39,405 bases of DNA from Caulobacter sp. HMWF025. Lineage in GTDB: Bacteria > Pseudomonadota > Alphaproteobacteria > Caulobacterales > Caulobacteraceae. Below the pieces are notes generated by a model. That model was not told where the DNA came from. It did no database searches and saw only the letters and a program-made list of their open reading frames with translations. This document shows positions 16,887 to 25,935 of this stretch, piece after piece (the stretch's first letter is position 1; each line of letters begins with the position of its first letter). The translations under genes were made by a program, and so were the position numbers. The DNA is taken from NCBI RefSeq assembly GCF_003060965.1, contig NZ_QAII01000034.1:1-39405 (forward strand). Direction: 5' to 3'.

Positions 16887-19151
16887 TTAGACGGCCACAT
16901 ACAGCTTTCGCGCCAGGGTTTCGATCTCCCCACGGACCGATCCGCCGGACCCCTTGAGCAGGGCTTCGACATTGCGTCGGGCCGCCTCGCGGTCGCAGGA
17001 CAGGACCATCTGCTTGACCGGACCGATCCCGGCCGGGGGCATGGACAGCCGGTCAAAGCCCAGAGCGATCAGGGCGAAGGCTTCCAGCGGGCGGCCGGCC
17101 ATCTCGCCGCAGACCGAAACCGGCGTGCCGGTATCGGCGCAGCCCTGCTGGATGGTCTTCAGGGCCCGCAGGGCAGCCGGCGACAGCGGGTCATAGCGGT
17201 CGGCCATGCGCGGATTGCCCCGGTCGGCCGCGAACAGATACTGCATCAGGTCGTTGGTACCGACCGAGACGAAATCGGTCATCGGCAGCAGCGCATCCAG
17301 GTGCCACAGCAACGACGGGGCCTCGATCATGGCCCCGACATCGAGGCGGGCCGGCGCGGGTCGGCCCCGCTTCAGGGCCCAGGCCACTTCCTGGTCGACA
17401 AAGGCCCGGGCGGCCCGGAACTCGTCGACGCTGGCGACCAGCGGGAACATGATCCGCAGGGACCGCCCCTGCGCAGCCTTGATCAGGGCCCGGATCTGCA
17501 TGCGCAGCAGGGCAGGCCGGTCCAGACCCATACGGATGGCGCGCCAGCCCAGGGCCGGATTGTCCTCGCGCTCCATCTCCATGTACGGGAGTAACTTGTC
17601 GCCGCCGAGATCGAGGGTGCGGAAGGTCACCGGCATGCCGTTGGCCGCGTCCAGCACCTTGGCGTAGAGCGCCGTCTGGGCTTCCAGCCGGGGCATTTCC
17701 TCGGCGACCATGAACTGGAACTCGGTGCGGAACAGGCCGATACCTTCGGCCCCCGTCTCGCCCAGGATGTCGAGATCAACCGCCAGGCCGGCGTTCATCA
17801 ACAGGGTGATCTTGTCGCCGTCCTTGGTGAAGGCCGGCGTATCGCGCAGACGGGCGAACTCGGCCTTGCGCTGGGCGCGAACCTCCATCCGGGCCTTCAG
17901 GGCCGTGACCACGTCCGGACGGGGCCGCAGCCAGGCTTCGGCGGTCTCGGCATCGACGACCACCGGATCGCCTTCGCTGACCCGATCGCGCAGGCCGGCC
18001 AGGCGGCCGACACAGGGGATGTCGAGGGCCCGGGCCACGATGCCGGCATGGCTCGCAGCCGAGCCCTCTTCCAGCAGGATGCCCTTCAGCTTGGTGCGAT
18101 CATATTCCAGCAAGTCGGCCGGGCCGAGATTGCGGGCGATCAGGATGGCGTTGTCGGGCAGCTTGCGGACCGCGTGGACGTCACCGGACAGGTGGCGCAG
18201 CAGGCGGTCGTTGAGATCTTCCAGATCGTGCAGGCGCTCGCGCAGATAGGGATCGCGAGCCTGACCCAGGCGGGCGCGGTGCTCGGATCGCACCCGCTCC
18301 ACTGCCGCCTCTGCCGTCAGGCCCGAGCGCACGGCCTCTTCCAGCCCCCGGTTCCAGCCCCGGTCATGCGCAAACAGGCGGTAGGTGTCGAGCACCTCGT
18401 AGCTGGCCCCGACCAGCCCGCCCTGCCCTTCGAGCATCTCGTCGATCTGGGTCTGCAGGGCCGCGACGGCGACCTTCAGCCGGACCTCTTCGGCCGCCGA
18501 GTCTTCGGACAGCAGTTGCTCGGGAGCCACGGGCTGCTCATGCAGCACCGCCACGCCATAGGCGAGACCCTCGGCAAAGCGCGCGCCCTTCAGCCGCTCG
18601 GGCTTGTGCGGCGCCAGTTCGACGTCCTTGAGTTCGTCCGCGCCCAGAAGTTCGCTGGAACTGACCATCTCGGCCAGGACCATGGCGATGATCTGGAGGT
18701 CCTCGACCTCCTCCTCGCCATAGATCCGCTCGGTCCGGTTCTGGACGACCAGCACGCCGATGGAGCGCCCGCCGCGCAGCAGCGGCACGGCCATGAAGGC
18801 ATGGTAGGGATCTTCGCCGGTTTCCGGACGATAGGCGAAAGCCGGATGATTGGGCGCGTCTGACAGGTTCAGCGGCCGGCCGAGCCGCATGGTCTCGCCG
18901 ACCAGACCCTCACCGGGCTTCAGACGGGTGACGTGAACGGCTTCGGGGGCCAGACCTTCGGTCGCGAACAGTTCCAGATCACCGGAAGCGCGGCGCAGAT
19001 AGATCGAGCAGACCTCGGCCACCATCGAAATGGCGATGGTCCGCACGACCATGTCGAGCTTGCCCTGGGCGGGGCCGGCTCCGGCCATGGCCTCGCGGAT
19101 CTGCCGAAGCAGACTGCGGGGTCCTCGAACGGCGATGCCGGATGCCGCCAT
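16887..19151 (-). CDS. ptsP: Phosphoenolpyruvate-protein phosphotransferase PtsP (EI-Ntr)
   Basis: A 754-residue enzyme I of the nitrogen phosphotransferase system. The N-terminal GAF domain (about 17-165) is followed by the enzyme-I HPr-binding region and the swivelling phosphohistidine domain with H368 in SAASHAGIVARALDIPC. The C-terminal PEP-binding barrel includes ETGAEGIGLFRTEFQF and GTNDLMQYLFAADR. In Caulobacter crescentus, PtsP responds to glutamine through its GAF domain and controls (p)ppGpp levels via SpoT. The GAF domain here makes a similar role likely. lysC and ptsP are near neighbours in several alphaproteobacteria; here they are about 5.5 kb apart. Confidence 0.96.
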   Translation of the reverse strand: MAASGIAVRGPRSLLRQIREAMAGAGPAQGKLDMVVRTIAISMVAEVCSIYLRRASGDLELFATEGLAPEAVHVTRLKPGEGLVGETMRLGRPLNLSDAPNHPAFAYRPETGEDPYHAFMAVPLLRGGRSIGVLVVQNRTERIYGEEEVEDLQIIAMVLAEMVSSSELLGADELKDVELAPHKPERLKGARFAEGLAYGVAVLHEQPVAPEQLLSEDSAAEEVRLKVAVAALQTQIDEMLEGQGGLVGASYEVLDTYRLFAHDRGWNRGLEEAVRSGLTAEAAVERVRSEHRARLGQARDPYLRERLHDLEDLNDRLLRHLSGDVHAVRKLPDNAILIARNLGPADLLEYDRTKLKGILLEEGSAASHAGIVARALDIPCVGRLAGLRDRVSEGDPVVVDAETAEAWLRPRPDVVTALKARMEVRAQRKAEFARLRDTPAFTKDGDKITLLMNAGLAVDLDILGETGAEGIGLFRTEFQFMVAEEMPRLEAQTALYAKVLDAANGMPVTFRTLDLGGDKLLPYMEMEREDNPALGWRAIRMGLDRPALLRMQIRALIKAAQGRSLRIMFPLVASVDEFRAARAFVDQEVAWALKRGRPAPARLDVGAMIEAPSLLWHLDALLPMTDFVSVGTNDLMQYLFAADRGNPRMADRYDPLSPAALRALKTIQQGCADTGTPVSVCGEMAGRPLEAFALIALGFDRLSMPPAGIGPVKQMVLSCDREAARRNVEALLKGSGGSVRGEIETLARKLYVAV

Positions 19152-19422
19152 GACGTCCTTGCGCTCTCACTATGGATCGAAGCGGATCAACATCGACTCA
19201 AACCCGTCCGGGTTAAGAAGCCGCTTCGCCCCTCAAGGGCGCTATAGCAGATTTCGCGCGACGCACAGCGTCCGGTGCCGCCGGAAGCAAAGATTGTCTC
19301 GCCTGAGACACGAAGAACGACACCGCTTCAATAAGGTGAGCGGTACCGGTCTGCACCGGGATGACCCGGGATCAGAATCTAACGGCGGTTGAAGCGGCCA
19401 TGTCGCGGCTGGGGCTGCGGAA

Positions 19423-20367
19423 TCAGCCCTCCACAGCCACCGCCTTCGGCCGGTGCAGCGAGACCGACCACAGAACCCCCGCCAGCATCAGGGCGATGGC
19501 CAAACCCTCCAGCGGCCGTGGCCAGCGGGCCTCGTGGAGGAAGCCGTAGAGCAGGGCAAACAGGGTCTCGAACACGATCAGCTGGCCCGAAAGACTGAGC
19601 GGCAGCAACCGGCTGGCGGCGTTCCACAGGCCGTTGCCGATCACCGAAGCCCCAAGGGCCACCGCCAGGCTGACGCCCCAGAACAGCCCCCAGGCCGAAA
19701 GGGCGTGGGCGACGCCGGGCAGCAGAAAGGCCGGGATCACCAGCACCAGCGACAGGGCCCCGGTGACCACCCCGGTTAGCAGCGACCATTCGTGGCTGTT
19801 GAAAGTCGTGGTCACCGCCAGTCGCCGGGCGTTCCAGACGGCGTAGAGCGTCCACACCGCCAGGGCCAGCACGGCGCCCAGCACACCCAGCACCAGACGC
19901 GGAACCGGCACGCCGTGGCCGCTGCCGAAGACATCGAGATTGATGCAGACGACGCCGGTCGCCAGCAGGGCCAAAGGGGCCGCCAGCCGGCGTAGCGGTA
20001 CGCCCTGCCCGGACTTTGAACCCACCAGGGTGACCGTGACCGGCAGCAGGCCGATGATCAGGGACGCCGCCGCCACGCCGGCATTCTGCACCGCCACCGC
20101 CAGGCCGACATAGTAGATCAGATTGCCCAGCAGGCTCAGCAAGGCGAGGTCGCGCCAGTCCCGGCCCGTCATCCGCCCGAACACCGCCCGCGCCGTCGGG
20201 GCCAGCAGGACCAATGAAGCAACGCCATAAGCGATGTAGCGCCCGGCCGTCATCTGCAGCGGCGTGAAGGCCTTGAGCAGCAGCGGGGCCAGAAACACCC
20301 CGCCCCAGAACGCCCCGGCGATCAGGCCACACAGCAGGCCAAGGGTGAGGTTACGGGGGCTGGTCAT
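19423..20367 (-). CDS. EamA/DMT family transporter
   Basis: A 314-residue integral membrane protein with about ten helices in two EamA halves (LCGLIAGAFWGGVFLAPLLLK near the start, and a second repeat from about residue 165). Members export amino acids, nucleotide sugars or other metabolites, and the substrate cannot be told here. It is the first gene of the stretch between ptsP and lysC and is divergent from the sia-like cassette. Confidence 0.88.
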   Translation of the reverse strand: MTSPRNLTLGLLCGLIAGAFWGGVFLAPLLLKAFTPLQMTAGRYIAYGVASLVLLAPTARAVFGRMTGRDWRDLALLSLLGNLIYYVGLAVAVQNAGVAAASLIIGLLPVTVTLVGSKSGQGVPLRRLAAPLALLATGVVCINLDVFGSGHGVPVPRLVLGVLGAVLALAVWTLYAVWNARRLAVTTTFNSHEWSLLTGVVTGALSLVLVIPAFLLPGVAHALSAWGLFWGVSLAVALGASVIGNGLWNAASRLLPLSLSGQLIVFETLFALLYGFLHEARWPRPLEGLAIALMLAGVLWSVSLHRPKAVAVEG

Positions 20368-20879
20368 TGTCCTTCCAGGGCGTGGCGGCCAGGTGGAAAC
20401 GGGGCCAATCGCCCCTTACAATCTTTCCGTGGCCTGAGCTCCCCAAAATGAGCATGTTTCAGGCCGGAGCCAAAGGCTGTCTGAACTGCGTCCGCCGGCG
20501 GCAAACCACGCCGCAAATCGGGTCAGCGCCTCGCCTGGGTCGGACGCCAAACCCCCAGCCCAGCAACCGCCGCGCCGGCGCTGCCGCGCGAAAAACGTGC
20601 TCCACTTTCAGTATTTTGAACACAGAATGCACAGAAACGGCGCGCTCGGCCGGAAAACCGTTCGTTTTGAAGAATTAATTCAGATTAAGCGTGACAAATT
20701 GTCGCACACCGGACTCGAATAACAATAGATCAGATCACTGATGAGCATTAAGAAGCAGGTTACCAAGTAACCAGAAGCCATGACTGAATCAAGACATACT
20801 CGATAACTACATTTTCACCGAAAACGGGCCCAACTCCTAGCAACTGATCGCGATCCAGCGGTCGTGATGGAGCCCAACC
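20368..20879. promoter_or_regulatory. AT-rich upstream region of the sia-like cassette
   Basis: A gap of about 510 bp with no convincing coding frame. The right half is strongly AT-rich for this genome and dense in palindromes: GAATTAATTC (20672-20681), GACAAATTGTC (20693-20703) and GGTTAC-CAA-GTAACC (20758-20772). It also holds two GANTC sequences (20712-20716 and 20786-20790), the target of the cell-cycle methyltransferase CcrM in this family. It must contain the promoters of both divergent transcription units; no single promoter can be picked. Confidence 0.55.
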
Positions 20880-22133
20880 ATGAACACCGCTCTCGCCGCC
20901 ACGCTCGAGCAGGCGCGCTTTACCGCCATGCTGGCTGGCGACCTTCGCCTGGGCGGCGCCGTCCTGCCGCCGACCGCGTCGAACGCCGATGTCATGAGTG
21001 TTTTCGAAGCCGACCAGGAGGTCCTCGGCGCGGTGATCGTCGACGGCGACCGGCCGATCGGCCTGATCAACCGCAACACCTTCTACAGCCAGTTCGCCCG
21101 CCCGTTTCATCGTGAACTCTTCCTGCGCCGCAGCTGCCAGGTGTTCATGGACGGCTCGCCGATCATCGTCAGCGCCGACACCACCATTCCGGACGTCGGG
21201 GCCATCGTTGCCGAGATCGGCCCCAAGGGCCTGACCGACGGTGTCATCGTCACCCGCAACGGGGCCTTTGACGGGCTCTGCGACGGCCTGACCCTGCTGC
21301 GGGCCCTGTCGGACCTGCAGGGTGAACAGCACCGCCAGCTGCTCAGCAGCATCGACTATGCCAGCACCATCCAGAACGCCCTGCTCGCCGACAGCCGCGC
21401 CGCCCTGCAGAAGGCCTTCGGGGCCAAGCACACGGTGATCTGGGAGCCCCGCGACACTGTCGGCGGCGACTGCTTCTTCGCCGTGCACGATGACGCGGGC
21501 GTCCTGATGGGCCTGATCGACTGCACCGGCCACGGCGTGCCCGGCGCCCTGCTGACCTCGATCGCCATCTCGGAAGCCAACCGCCTGGCCGCTGATGCCG
21601 ACCTGCGCCGCAACCCGGCCCAGCTGCTGACACGCCTGAACCAGCGTGTGAAGATCGCCCTGCAGCAGACCAGCGAGGACGGTGACAGCACCGCCGACGA
21701 CGGCATGGACGCGGTCTTCATGTGGGTTGACCACAACCGCGACACCGCCCGCGCCGCCAGCGCCCGCCTGCCGATCTTCATCGCCGGGGCCGACGGCACG
21801 ATCGAGACCCTGAAGGGCTGCCGCAAGGGCCTGGGCTATCGGGAAACCCCGCTCGACTACGAATGGGCCGAGCACGTCGTCGACCTGAAGCCCGGCATGC
21901 GGGTGTTCATGGCCACCGACGGGGTCGGCGATCAACTGGGTGAGCAGACCCCGATCGCCTTCGGCTGGAACCGCTTCCGCGAGGCCGTCAGCAGCGCGGC
22001 CCAGGGCGGTGTGCTGGGCCAGACCCATGCCGGGTGGCAGGCTTTTAACACCTGGCAGGGGCGTCAGGCACGCCGCGACGACATCACCATCCTGGGCGCC
22101 GAAATCGGCGTGCCCCTCACGGTCGGAGGTTGA
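20880..22133 (+). CDS. SiaA-like PP2C phosphatase with CBS-like N-terminus
   Basis: A 417-residue protein. Residues about 30-145 look like a CBS-type ligand domain (LGAVIVDGDRPIGLINRNTF; DGVIVTRNGAFDGLCDG). A short helical linker leads to a SpoIIE/PP2C phosphatase domain (about 180-410). The metal ligands are in place: RDTVGGD (D197), GLIDCTGHGVPGALL (D214), MATDGVGDQ (D347) and RRDDITIL (D401). In Pseudomonas SiaA dephosphorylates SiaC but is a membrane protein; this one has no membrane helix, so its input signal probably differs. It is the first gene of a three-gene cassette; GGAGG near its stop serves the next gene. Confidence 0.88.
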   Translation: MNTALAATLEQARFTAMLAGDLRLGGAVLPPTASNADVMSVFEADQEVLGAVIVDGDRPIGLINRNTFYSQFARPFHRELFLRRSCQVFMDGSPIIVSADTTIPDVGAIVAEIGPKGLTDGVIVTRNGAFDGLCDGLTLLRALSDLQGEQHRQLLSSIDYASTIQNALLADSRAALQKAFGAKHTVIWEPRDTVGGDCFFAVHDDAGVLMGLIDCTGHGVPGALLTSIAISEANRLAADADLRRNPAQLLTRLNQRVKIALQQTSEDGDSTADDGMDAVFMWVDHNRDTARAASARLPIFIAGADGTIETLKGCRKGLGYRETPLDYEWAEHVVDLKPGMRVFMATDGVGDQLGEQTPIAFGWNRFREAVSSAAQGGVLGQTHAGWQAFNTWQGRQARRDDITILGAEIGVPLTVGG

Positions 22134-22135
22134 TC

Positions 22136-22687
22136 ATGACCCAGAAGGACTTCGCCGAACTCGCCGCCGAGCACGATGTCTTCTTCTATTACTGCGGCTA
22201 TTTCAGCCAGCCGATCATCGAAGCGTCGGCCGATGCGATCCGCCTGCGCCTGGAGTGCGAGAACCTCGCCTACAAGATCCAGCGCCGCGTGCTGGGGGCC
22301 TTCATCGAAATGGCCCAGAACATCGTGCACTATTCGGCCGAAAGCCTGACCGACCCCAATGCCAAGACCGATGAAGTCCGGTTCGGGACCCTGGCCATCG
22401 CCCAGACCGACCTCGGCATCCGCCTGACCTGTTCCAACCCGGTCGACACCGGCACGGCCCAGCGCCTCGACAGCAAGCTGGCCGTCCTGTCGCAAATGTC
22501 GCTGGAAGAGATCCGCCAGGCCTACCGCACCGCCCTGCGCGCTGAAGAGGGCGAGGCCGGCAGCAAGGGCGGCGGCATCGGCTTGCTGACCATCGCCCGC
22601 GAGTCGAGCGCTCCGATCGAATACCAGATCATGGACGCGCCAAACTCGCCCGACCTAAAGATCTTCCAACTCTCCGTCACCGTGTGA
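22136..22687 (+). CDS. SiaB-like protein kinase (DUF6272, HATPase fold)
   Basis: A 183-residue protein with a divergent GHKL ATPase fold. The N-box is IEMAQNIVHYS (E58, N62), and the glycine-rich ATP lid is SKGGGIGLLTIARES (about 143-157). A CSNPVD segment lies in the middle, as in SiaB proteins. In the Pseudomonas system SiaB phosphorylates SiaC, opposing SiaA. The ATG at 22136-22138 follows the siaA-like stop by two bases, with GGAGG at 22125-22129; a TTG at 22130 is an alternative. Confidence 0.85.
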   Translation: MTQKDFAELAAEHDVFFYYCGYFSQPIIEASADAIRLRLECENLAYKIQRRVLGAFIEMAQNIVHYSAESLTDPNAKTDEVRFGTLAIAQTDLGIRLTCSNPVDTGTAQRLDSKLAVLSQMSLEEIRQAYRTALRAEEGEAGSKGGGIGLLTIARESSAPIEYQIMDAPNSPDLKIFQLSVTV

Positions 22688-22694
22688 GCGCCCC

Positions 22695-23075
22695 ATGTCC
22701 GACATTCACATTCCTGGTACCCGACAAACGCCGACGGTCGATTTCCGGTTTTCGGAAAACCTCCTCAAGCTGAGCGGCGAAGCCTATCCCGAAAATGCCG
22801 TCACCTTCTTTGAACCCCTGAACGCCGCAGTCGAGGCATATCTCGCGGCGAGCTCTGAACCGGTCAACGTCGAGTTCGACCTGCGCTATCTCAACAGCGC
22901 CGCGACCAAGATGATCTTCAAGCTGGGCGGCATCCTCAACAAGGCCGCCGAGCATCGCTTGGTCTCGCTGCGCTTTGTGGTCGTCGAGGATGACGAAATG
23001 GTCCAGGACCTAGGGGCCGACTTCCAGACGGACTACAGCTGGATCAACTTCCAGTTCGTCGAAGTCGCTCTCTGA
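22695..23075 (+). CDS. SiaC-like phospho-switch protein (DUF1987)
   Basis: A 126-residue STAS-like protein. Its N-terminus MSDIHIPGTRQTP is very close to Pseudomonas SiaC as I remember it, and the SGEAYPENAVTFFEPL segment is the family signature. In Pseudomonas SiaB phosphorylates T68 and unphosphorylated SiaC activates the diguanylate cyclase SiaD. The matching position here is S68 in RYLNSAATK, with T71 close by. The gene lies seven bases after the kinase and ends before a strong terminator. No GGDEF gene is adjacent, so its partner is unknown. Confidence 0.85.
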   Translation: MSDIHIPGTRQTPTVDFRFSENLLKLSGEAYPENAVTFFEPLNAAVEAYLAASSEPVNVEFDLRYLNSAATKMIFKLGGILNKAAEHRLVSLRFVVVEDDEMVQDLGADFQTDYSWINFQFVEVAL

Positions 23076-23086
23076 TCCAACCGCCC

Positions 23087-23125
23087 CCGCACGCGTCCCG
23101 GTCGCAACGGCCGGGACGCGTGCGG
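23087..23125 (+). terminator. Strong hairpin ending the sia-like cassette
   Basis: A perfect 15-bp stem (CCGCACGCGTCCCGG paired with CCGGGACGCGTGCGG) with a nine-base loop starts 11 bases after the siaC-like stop. It is followed by a short TGTTT stretch. Position and stem strength indicate a terminator separating the cassette from the esterase. Confidence 0.8.
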
Positions 23126-23190
23126 TGTTTGGAGGTTTACGCGCTCCGTCCACGCACTAGACTCGTTTCGTCGAGGTGGCGGAGCGGATC

Positions 23191-24111
23191 ATGTCTGGAT
23201 TGTCCATGAACCGGTGGGCGCGAGCCCTTTGTGTGATCCCTGCCCTGCTGGGCTGGAGTGCTGTCGCCCAGGCGGCCTGCCCGGTCGGCACGCCGGGCCT
23301 GACCGCGCGGGTCGAGATCGGCCAGACGGGGCGTAGCCTCGAGCTGCACCGTCCTGCCGGAGCAGATCCGGCCGCGCCTGCGCCGCTGCTGATCCTGCTG
23401 CACGGCAGTGGCGGCACCGGGGCCAGGATGCTGGCAGCCTCGAAGCTGGAGGCCACGGCTGACCGCGCGGGCTTCATCCTGGTCGCCCCGGATGCCGGGA
23501 TCCCGGTGGGTTCAGGCTTTGTCTGGAACATTCCCGGCGTGCCGACCGTCACCGGCAAGATCCCCGATGCTTCGGACCCCGACGACGTGGCCTATCTGGC
23601 CAGGGTGGTCGACAGCCTGGTGGCCGACGGCTGCGTCGAGCGGGCGCGGGTCTATGTCACCGGCCTGTCGGGCGGCGGGCGTATGGCCTCGTGGCTGGGA
23701 TGCGTGGAGTCGCACCGCTATGCCGCCATCGCCCCGGTGGTCGGCCTGAGAGCCGGCAATCCGAAGACGGACAATCCGCAGGAGCCCGATGCGGCCACCT
23801 GTCAGCCGGCCCTGCCCGTGCCGGTGATCGCCTTCGCCGGCGACAACGACGCGACCAACCCCACCCAGGGCGGCGGCGCGGGCTACTGGCAGTATACGAT
23901 GCACGCCGCCGAACAGCGCTGGGCCGCCCTGAACGGCTGCCAGACCGCCCCGACCACCGCCTGGGTCACGCCCGGCGTCTATGAGGAGCGCTATGCCGGC
24001 TGCCGGGGCGAGGCCGAGGTCGTGGGCCGGATGACGGTCGGCGGCACCCACACCTGGCTGGCCGACAACGACGCCCTCTGGGCCTTCGTGTCGCGGTACC
24101 GGCGGGAGTAG
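23191..24111 (+). CDS. Secreted polyhydroxybutyrate-depolymerase-family esterase
   Basis: A 306-residue alpha/beta hydrolase with a signal peptide (cleavage near VAQAA). The oxyanion segment ILLHGSGGTG, the nucleophile elbow GLSGGG, the acid in FAGDNDATNP and the histidine in GGTHTWL are all present, matching LpqC/PHB depolymerase-type esterases. Likely substrates are polyester or aromatic esters outside the cell. ATG at 23191 is chosen because GGAG lies six bases before it; a GTG at 23176 and an ATG at 23206 are in frame. It is separated from the sia-like genes by a strong hairpin. Confidence 0.88.
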   Translation: MSGLSMNRWARALCVIPALLGWSAVAQAACPVGTPGLTARVEIGQTGRSLELHRPAGADPAAPAPLLILLHGSGGTGARMLAASKLEATADRAGFILVAPDAGIPVGSGFVWNIPGVPTVTGKIPDASDPDDVAYLARVVDSLVADGCVERARVYVTGLSGGGRMASWLGCVESHRYAAIAPVVGLRAGNPKTDNPQEPDAATCQPALPVPVIAFAGDNDATNPTQGGGAGYWQYTMHAAEQRWAALNGCQTAPTTAWVTPGVYEERYAGCRGEAEVVGRMTVGGTHTWLADNDALWAFVSRYRRE

Positions 24112-24119
24112 GCTTGAGC

Positions 24120-24584
24120 CTACCCGTGCCCCGGCATCGCCAGGGGCTCGTCAGCGTCCTGCACCAGGCGACGGGCCTGTTCGAGGGCGGCGTCGATGTC
24201 GGCCTCGATGAACTCGACCTCAAGGTCGGTCAGCGGGTGCGGCGCGGCGATGGTTTCGCGCAGATAGGCCCGCTTTTCCAGCTCGGTCATGGTCCACCAG
24301 CCGACCGTGTGACCTTCCTCGATCACCGCATCGCCCATGGCCAGCAGGTCATCGGTGTCGAAGATCGGCTGGCCGGGCTTTTCCGGGAACCACTGGCCGT
24401 CGTCGGGCAGGGCCTGGTCGAGCCGCTTCAGCAGGGCCGCCAGCCACGGGCTGACCAGCAGGGGCTTTTCGTAGCCGTCACCGAACTTGGCGCGCAGCAG
24501 CAGGTCGTAGAGCAGCTCCAGACCCTCGTCGCCCTCGAAGGTGACGGTCTTGGCGGCGGGGTCGAACTTGAAGACATCAGGCAT
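24120..24584 (-). CDS. Hypothetical protein
   Basis: A 154-residue acidic cytoplasmic protein with no signal peptide or membrane helix and no family I recognise. It begins MPDVFKFDPAAKTVTFEGD and has a WFPEKPGQPIFDTDDLLAMGDAVIEEGHTVGWW stretch with several Asp and Trp residues. The ATG at 24582-24584 is used because the longer frame reads upstream noncoding sequence. It lies 8 bp from the convergent esterase and about 100 bp downstream of lysC on the same strand. Confidence 0.72.
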   Translation of the reverse strand: MPDVFKFDPAAKTVTFEGDEGLELLYDLLLRAKFGDGYEKPLLVSPWLAALLKRLDQALPDDGQWFPEKPGQPIFDTDDLLAMGDAVIEEGHTVGWWTMTELEKRAYLRETIAAPHPLTDLEVEFIEADIDAALEQARRLVQDADEPLAMPGHG

Positions 24585-24687
24585 GGGAATCTCGCTGGCT
24601 GCCGCCTTCATAACGTCCGAACGCGACGTTTTCTTGCAAGAGGTCGACGCCCCCTCCACCCGCCTCGCAGCGAAGGAGACGTCGGCC

Positions 24688-25935
24688 CTAAAGCTGGTCC
24701 AGCCCGTACACCGCATGCAGGGCGCGGACGGCCAGTTCAGTATAGGCCGCGTCGATCAGGACGCTGATCTTGATCTCCGAGGTCGAGATGACCTGGATGT
24801 TGATGTTCTTCTCGGCCAGGGCCTGGAACATCGACTGGGCGACGCCGGCGTGGCTGCGCATGCCGACCCCGATCACCGAAACCTTGGAGACGTCCTCGTC
24901 GACGGCCACGGCCTCGAAGCCGATCTCGGACTGGGCGGCCTGGACGATCTCGACGGCGCGCTGGGCGTCGCGCTTGCCGACCGTGAACTCCATGTTGGCG
25001 GTGTCGGCGCTGCGGGCGCGCGACTGCACGATCATGTCGACGTTCACATTGGCGTCGGCCAGCCGGCCGAAGATCTGCGAGGACACGCCCGGATGGTCGG
25101 GCAGGCCCAGCAGGGTGATCTTGGCTTCGTCGCGGCTATAGGCGACGCCCGAGACGATGCGCTTTTCCATGATTTCTTCCTCGTCGCAGACGATCGTACC
25201 TTGGCCCGGAGCTTCCCCCGGTTCGACGAAACTCGACAGCACCCGCACCGGGACGCGATGGGCCATGGCCATCTCGACCGAACGGGTCTGCAGAACCTTG
25301 GCCCCCAGCGAGGCCATTTCCAGCATCTCTTCATAAGAGATCCTGGCCAGCCGGCGGGCCTTCTTTTCGATGCGCGGGTCGGTCGTATAGACGCCGTCCA
25401 CGTCGGTATAGATGTCGCAGGCCCCCTTGACGGCGGCGGCGATGGCCACGGCGCTGGTGTCGGAGCCGCCGCGGCCCAGGGTGGTGATGCGGCCACCGGC
25501 CGTTACGCCCTGGAAGCCGGCGATCACGGCGATCTGGCCGGCCTCGAAACAGGCCTCCAGATTGGCCGGGGGGATGTCTTCAATGCGGGCGCGACCGTGG
25601 GCATCGTCAGTCAGGATCGGCACCTGCCAACCCAGGAACGAGCGGGCATTGAGGCCCATATTGCGCAGGGTCATGGCCAGCAGGCCGGCCGTCACCTGCT
25701 CGCCCGAGGCCACGACGGCATCATATTCGTCGTCCGACTCCGGCAGGCCCGCCGCAGCGCGGCCCGCACCGTCGGTCCAGGCGACCAGTTCATTGGTCTT
25801 GCCCGACATGGCCGAGACGACCACCGCCACAGACTTGCCGGTCGCGACCTCGGCGGCGACCAGACGGCCCACCCGCCGGATGCGCTCCAGGTCGGCCACG
25901 GAGGTGCCGCCGAACTTCATCACCAGACGAGACAC
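24688..25935 (-). CDS. lysC: Aspartate kinase
   Basis: First step of the aspartate pathway to lysine, threonine and methionine. The 415-residue single-function kinase starts MSRLVMKFGGTSVADLERI. The amino acid kinase domain (about 1-245) includes FQGVTAGGRITTLGRGGSDTSAVAIA and the DVDGVYTTDPRI loop. Two C-terminal ACT domains (about 265-415) predict allosteric control by lysine and threonine. It is divergent from ubiG, and the lysC-ubiG-DUF1178-nitrilase-grxC-comF neighbourhood is conserved in many alphaproteobacteria. Confidence 0.97.
   Translation of the reverse strand: MSRLVMKFGGTSVADLERIRRVGRLVAAEVATGKSVAVVVSAMSGKTNELVAWTDGAGRAAAGLPESDDEYDAVVASGEQVTAGLLAMTLRNMGLNARSFLGWQVPILTDDAHGRARIEDIPPANLEACFEAGQIAVIAGFQGVTAGGRITTLGRGGSDTSAVAIAAAVKGACDIYTDVDGVYTTDPRIEKKARRLARISYEEMLEMASLGAKVLQTRSVEMAMAHRVPVRVLSSFVEPGEAPGQGTIVCDEEEIMEKRIVSGVAYSRDEAKITLLGLPDHPGVSSQIFGRLADANVNVDMIVQSRARSADTANMEFTVGKRDAQRAVEIVQAAQSEIGFEAVAVDEDVSKVSVIGVGMRSHAGVAQSMFQALAEKNINIQVISTSEIKISVLIDAAYTELAVRALHAVYGLDQL

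Follow-up and report, generated by a model that had tools for sequence, protein, structure and literature searches.

Known Sia systems and the question addressed

The closest described relative of the locus reported here is the SiaABCD system of Pseudomonas aeruginosa, in which a PP2C phosphatase (SiaA), a SiaB-family kinase and the switch protein SiaC are encoded in the order siaA-siaB-siaC. In the literature covered, SiaC figures so far as an activator of a single diguanylate cyclase. According to the part of PMC8457831 available to us, the helical stalk preceding the GGDEF domain of SiaD is the docking site of SiaC, and SiaC residues N67, T68 and S69 touch that stalk. The same part reports that a triple alanine change at N67, T68 and S69 abolishes binding and function, and that single changes at any of these positions, as well as the T68A/S69A double change, still restore biofilm. 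On neighbours in general, it goes as far as suggesting that DUF1987 proteins modulate adjacent proteins (PMC8457831, in the part available).

We analysed a 39,405-nucleotide stretch of DNA from Caulobacter sp. HMWF025 (hereafter the window), in which a sequence-only reading had reported a phosphatase, a kinase and a SiaC-like (DUF1987) gene in tandem with no cyclase linked to them. The order of the genes, the PP2C phosphatase, the SiaB-family kinase and a phosphorylatable residue at position 68 of SiaC are shared with P. aeruginosa. The locus differs from that system in that no siaD was found, linked or elsewhere, in that SiaA carries a CBS pair and no predicted membrane part, and in that SiaC has Ser68 followed by Ala69.

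A three-gene cassette of the Sia family

Family profiles and solved relatives confirm the three-gene cassette, and the profile searches placed all three proteins in Sia families above curated cut-offs (Table 1). The phosphatase domain of SiaA has a PP2C fold like that of 6k4e with the metal-site aspartate motifs present, and all three reading frames are intact with their catalytic motifs. None of the proteins reaches the Pseudomonas equivalog models for SiaA, SiaB and SiaC (NF038263, 183.5 of 700 bits; NF038264, 74.4 of 225; NF038265, 72.6 of 150), and all three fall far under these cut-offs. The earlier description of the third protein as close to Pseudomonas SiaC is thus right as to family and loose as to closeness.

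Table 1. Features of the siaABC locus in the window.
Feature	Position	Strand	Size	Evidence or remark
Stretch absent from same-genus genome G077	20368..23264	.		blastn blocks end at 20367 and resume at 23265
siaA, CBS-pair PP2C (SpoIIE-type) phosphatase	20880..22133	+	417 aa	SpoIIE phosphatase profile 68.6 bits (cut-off 25); solved relative 6k4e, E 2.4e-39
CBS-pair sensor part of SiaA (predicted), about residues 17-135	20928..21284	+		predicted model, Foldseek, profile A5
siaB, SiaB-family (DUF6272) protein kinase	22136..22687	+	183 aa	DUF6272 114 bits (cut-off 26.6); NCBIfam SiaB-family kinase NF038262 161.7 bits (cut-off 85); solved relative 6kko chain A, E 1.9e-11; EMxQN box kept
siaC, SiaC-family switch protein	22695..23075	+	126 aa	PF09345 102.3 bits (cut-off 24.5); solved relative 6kko chain C, E 8.3e-16
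Codons of SiaC Ser68 (predicted phosphorylation site; Thr in P. aeruginosa) and Ala69 (Ser in P. aeruginosa)	22896..22901	+		alignment to P. aeruginosa SiaC, residue counts
18-pair hairpin downstream of siaC; may be a terminator, lacks a U tract	23087..23125	+		z -5.1

The genes are separated by gaps of 2 and 7 bases. The siaB start is taken as the ATG that lies behind a GGAGG, 2 bases past the siaA stop, and the 183 residues are counted from there; the ORF listing opens this gene two codons earlier, at a TTG. siaC begins 7 bases past the siaB stop. No GGDEF gene lies downstream of siaC, and the next gene, on the same strand at 23176-24111, is an esterase (Pfam 23.1 bits against a cut-off of 23), both as the sequence-only reading had stated from the open reading frames. 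Its 'strong terminator' behind the cassette proved half right: the hairpin is strong, with none of 200 shuffles as stable, but it is trailed only by GTGTTTGG, so that a U tract is missing, and the terminator scan called no site on the + strand there.

The N-terminus of SiaA is predicted to adopt a CBS-pair fold. Since the structural matches listed for a model of whole SiaA were PP2C chains and left the N-terminus unprobed, residues 1-157 were modelled alone (pLDDT 88.6), and the top Foldseek rows were CBS-pair proteins; the model contains two beta-alpha-beta-beta-alpha units with the CBS fold. A profile of this part (A5) likewise matches CBS proteins. By Pfam, the CBS score of this SiaA is below the cut-off (17.1 against 24) and that of a relative (P0153) is above it. 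Judging by this fold, SiaA would respond to some ligand in the cytosol, possibly an adenine nucleotide. A sequence related to the CBS part is also present elsewhere in this genome, on contig C107 (L003, 435-2588, - strand), as the N-terminus of a PAS-GGDEF-EAL protein (34% identical, E 6.2e-12).

A SpoIIE-type phosphatase, a kinase and a small phosphate acceptor are also the layout of sigma-factor switches, so SiaB or SiaC could be an anti-sigma or anti-anti-sigma factor, as in SpoIIAB/SpoIIAA and RsbW/RsbV. In the part of PMC7647112 available, the nearest structural relative of SiaC is given as an anti-sigma factor antagonist. No sigma or anti-sigma gene was seen beside the cassette, however, and SiaB belongs to the DUF6272/SiaB family, which is not an anti-sigma family; we regard a switch of this type as very unlikely.

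Search for a SiaD-type partner in the genome

The sequence-only reading had held that a SiaD-type cyclase encoded elsewhere, and shown to bind this SiaC, would make the cassette an ordinary Sia system. The assembly (99.95% complete) has one SiaC and 13 GGDEF places. With a stalk profile built from 58 linked SiaDs, the ORFs of 100 aa or more in the 13 GGDEF loci scored 2.3 bits at best. Two further stalk alignments, A2 (21 rows) and the broader A3 (23 rows, including stalks of kinases and adenylate cyclases), were run against the whole genome. A3 returned nothing at E≤1, and A2 a single match at E 0.33, on contig C16, which was rejected as a hidden stalk because it runs antisense to an ORF that we take to be tatB-like. 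By these profiles and the GGDEF census, no SiaD-type protein, linked or unlinked, was detected in this genome.

Several controls bear on the sensitivity of the profiles. A2 recovered the stalk in five of five linked genomes outside its own rows, all close kin of those rows, and found the siaDs of L047, L055 and L058. A true stalk can nevertheless be missed, as A2 missed the cyclase of L062; A3 was built with L062 and hence detects it. A profile of beta- and gammaproteobacterial SiaDs found a stalk protein directly downstream of siaC in all 10 alphaproteobacterial siaC loci fetched, from 12 full-length places besides the window.

Such misses leave room for an ordinary Sia system, in which one of the 13 GGDEF proteins would have a stalk so diverged that the profiles overlook it, and SiaC would activate the protein through that stalk. 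An example is a short 237-aa cyclase on contig C13, which is SiaD-sized and has a short N-terminus of about 80 residues followed by GGDEF; the variation among stalks that hid L062 from A2 speaks for this account, as does the function kept by the P. aeruginosa T68A/S69A protein (PMC8457831, in the part available). Yet the N-terminus of the C13 cyclase lacks an SDR-type motif and reaches 1.0 bit against the stalk profile. Among solved structures DosC matches this cyclase best, with SiaD (7e6g) twelfth by bit score over residues 63-233, and A3, which detects stalks of four output classes, found none in this genome. We consider an ordinary system unlikely.

The sequence-only reading had taken the missing GGDEF neighbour to mean that the switch must control something elsewhere. 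The failure to detect a SiaD-type protein, linked or unlinked, agrees with that view; the missing neighbour by itself turned out to be a poor argument for it, as the survey below indicates.

Effectors beside siaC in other genomes

Among the best 80 of 455 relatives, siaD lies directly downstream of the cassette in 58, upstream in three (L055, L058 and L062) and downstream with one in-frame stop in L047, and none was found in 18. The interrupted siaD of L047, from Candidatus Symbiopectobacterium, looks decayed. The linked loci include siaABCD cassettes with a CBS-SiaA from Beta- and Gammaproteobacteria (among them Pectobacterium, Paraburkholderia and Janthinobacterium), which match the SiaA of the window over its full length, N-terminus included, and have SiaB and SiaC in tandem. 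They differ from the window in the SDR-stalk siaD directly downstream in those 58 loci and in residue 69 of SiaC, which is Ser in 61 of the 62 linked loci.

A wider view came from the phylum sample, with 83 siaC places listed and 76 fetched (the window, three places already fetched and three partial matches were left out). When these loci were searched with A3, 56 of them contained a stalk ORF (one per locus, out of 1884 ORFs in all) and the other 20 contained none. In 47 cases the stalk ORF immediately follows siaC in the same orientation. By profiles made here, their outputs are HD-GYP (22), GGDEF (21), adenylate cyclase (9), histidine kinase (2) and other (2), the last pair being a protein with kinase domains by Pfam and a GAF protein truncated where its contig stops. 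Pfam agreed for the stalk proteins tested, with HD_5 and GAF in 4/4, an adenylate/guanylate cyclase domain in 3/3 and HATPase_c in 5/5.

A linked cyclase is therefore not the rule for siaC loci, and since 35 of the 56 stalk proteins near siaC have outputs other than GGDEF, a missing GGDEF neighbour is not odd in itself. What is odd about the cassette in the window is the lack of any detectable stalk protein in the genome together with Ala69 in SiaC.

The alphaproteobacterial siaB-siaC loci (L121-L130) share class and SiaC family with the window and differ from it in having a stalk effector directly downstream in 10/10, of three output types, with residue 69 being Ser (8) or Gly (2). Taken with L228-L303, these loci show the SiaC-docking stalk as a modular element, fused to GGDEF, GAF-HD-GYP, a class III adenylate cyclase or a histidine kinase. 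A modular stalk is possibly a general rule for SiaC targets. Among the matches listed in open-licence papers, no description of varied stalk outputs beside siaC was found.

Residue 69 of SiaC

Position 68 is phosphorylatable throughout the phylum sample (Ser in 69 of 76, Thr in 7). In 129 stalk-linked SiaCs, position 69 is Ser (105), Thr (21), Gly (2) or Ala (1), and Ala occurs in 16 of the 39 SiaCs without a detected stalk, namely the window, 14 of the 18 SiaD-less genomes and 1 of the 20 phylum loci; the set behind these counts is partly biased, its sequences are related by descent and some fetched stretches stop at contig ends. The single stalk-linked exception is L062, which has Ala69 and a stalk GGDEF upstream. 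Ala69 is further found in 21 of 23 metagenome relatives of this SiaC.

These counts are not to be read as independent observations. One of the two search patterns behind the set of 80 loci was fixed for Ala69, so that this residue is enriched in that set (against 1 of 76 in the phylum sample), and on the tree it takes just 7 parsimony steps, which points to few independent events. Nor are stalk absence and Ala69 tightly tied, as Ser69 is kept in 4 of the 18 SiaD-less genomes, and of the 20 phylum loci whose fetched stretch contains no stalk, 18 have Ser (14) or Thr (4), beside one Val and one Ala. Given that single changes and T68A/S69A keep function in P. aeruginosa, Ala69 alone need not break stalk binding.

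In the phylum sample Ala69 is confined to locus L303, where SiaA is of the CBS type and no stalk lies nearby. The genome of this locus (G1127) encodes a second SiaC, L272, with Ser69 and beside a stalk GGDEF.

Stalk-less relatives and their neighbours

In the 18 SiaD-less genomes, no A2 match reached E≤0.01; no A3 match was stronger than E 0.0036, and 12 of the 18 gave weak A3 matches at E≤1. Many of these genomes are MAGs, for none of which a completeness figure is given. Cassettes without a detected siaD occur in Ferrovum and other Betaproteobacteria. Two uncultured Ferrovum MAGs (L086 and L089) hold the nearest cassettes among the best 80 of 455 relatives, all 80 from named records (SiaA 47-48%, SiaB 53%), and form the sister group of the window in both trees; like the window they have Ala69, and no SiaD stalk was found in their genomes. 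They differ in class, in site (a greB-like ORF lies upstream, judged by eye) and in a SiaC that is only 35% identical.

No neighbour common to the 18 SiaD-less cassettes was found, and the genes beside them vary between loci. MotB lies upstream in L016 and L039 (Pfam) and as a fragment in L024 (by eye), MCP genes are near L032 and L040 and at a distance from L067, and an HD-domain gene is near L019 (Pfam) and L020 (by eye). A gene for an EAL-CBS-GGDEF protein is nearby in 4 of the 18 SiaD-less loci by Pfam (L015, L032, L044 and L091) and in a fifth, L040, by blast only, as against 1 of 62 linked loci. As a weak hint, these neighbours point to motility and c-di-GMP. A further weak hint to the putative target is the PAS-GGDEF-EAL protein of this genome with its CBS-related N-terminus.

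The EAL-CBS-GGDEF genes with the CBS-type domain of SiaA lie at 1961-3259 in L015, 2522-4381 in L032, 8459-10366 in L044, 6910-8712 in L062 and 8425-10353 in L091. In L258, where no stalk protein was detected, CheB- and CheW-like ORFs are seen by eye near siaABC.

Distribution and origin of the cassette

The sequence-only reading had presented the cassette as a branch of the Caulobacteraceae and had proposed a look at its co-occurrence in related genomes. The survey does not support such a branch. SiaC is found in 1 of 390 family genomes (1 of 249 in another search) and in 1 of 200 genomes of the order sample, and co-occurrence within the family is useless for finding a partner when a single genome of 390 has the cassette. 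It becomes more frequent in the class sample (14 of 385, counting the genome of the window and one sub-cut-off fragment) and in the phylum sample (67 of 398). The site is empty in the same-genus genome G077, in which the flanking blocks are 195 bases apart as against 2897 in the window. The flanking genes lysC, eamA and ptsP occur in order in 9 of 16 same-genus regions (one of them only 529 bases), and siaABC in 0 of 16.

Contamination or mis-binning was rejected, the flanks being collinear with same-genus genomes. The rarity in the family and the empty site in a relative make it most likely that this lineage gained the cassette, probably by lateral transfer. The lysC-ptsP interval (16887-25935 of the window) is itself variable in the genus, with eamA and the esterase present in some relatives and absent in others.

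As to carriers, nothing pointed to phages (the 16 pattern matches on viral contigs included no relative), and SiaB relatives were found on 13 of 72,556 plasmid records, the best at 44.7%. The closest proteins are metagenome sequences (SiaC 79-86%, SiaB 72-79%, SiaA 79%, near-identical entries left out). A SiaC/SiaB pair at 83/79% and a SiaC/SiaB/SiaA trio at 79/72/79% are listed on contigs of 1338 and 7143 bases, respectively; going by the equal contig sizes, the members of each would share a contig, and the cassette would hold together in metagenomes. Elsewhere in the family it is not entirely lacking, as a MAG named Caulobacteraceae at NCBI has relatives of SiaA (P0074, 56%) and SiaB (P0168, 52%), both on 37480-base contigs.

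A gene set so acquired might be an idle newcomer, gained laterally without its effector and with no target in the host. Its presence in a single family genome of 390, the empty site in a relative and the missing stalk protein would all fit. The three intact frames with their catalytic motifs argue against idleness, as do the related cassettes of Ferrovum and other Betaproteobacteria, in which no siaD was detected either, and the retention of the unit on metagenome contigs at 72-83%, and we think it quite unlikely.

Proposed mechanism

The account that we favour, with moderate confidence, is that SiaA and SiaB set the phosphorylation of SiaC at Ser68, and that unphosphorylated SiaC acts on a putative unlinked protein without a SiaD-type stalk. 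By analogy with the biochemistry of P. aeruginosa, SiaB would phosphorylate SiaC, here at Ser68, and SiaA would remove the phosphate, with its CBS pair reading a cytosolic ligand, perhaps an adenine nucleotide. Unphosphorylated SiaC would then act on another, unlinked protein; we infer this re-targeting from the missing stalk and from residue 69. The leading guess for the putative target is the resident c-di-GMP or motility machinery, in itself a doubtful one.

More tentatively, and at somewhat less than an even chance, the cassette may belong to a stalk-less Sia branch, marked by an Ala69 SiaC and a CBS-SiaA, that gave up the helical-stalk enzymes otherwise gated by SiaC (diguanylate cyclases, HD-GYP phosphodiesterases, adenylate cyclases and histidine kinases), turned to proteins of another class and reached this Caulobacteraceae genome by lateral spread. 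Neither such a branch nor a Sia system in Caulobacter was found among the matches listed in the open-licence literature, nor in the available parts of PMC7647112, PMC12834913 and PMC10413115.

If a stalk-less branch exists, SiaC would serve more generally as a phospho-gated adaptor, having at least one target of another kind. Because this strain has one SiaC and no detectable stalk protein, it offers a clean test, in that a protein bound by its SiaC would be a new target. The modularity of the stalk is possibly of more interest than the cassette itself. With four kinds of output domain on stalks beside siaC, many unnamed proteins of c-di-GMP, cAMP and two-component signalling could be tested as enzymes gated by SiaC.
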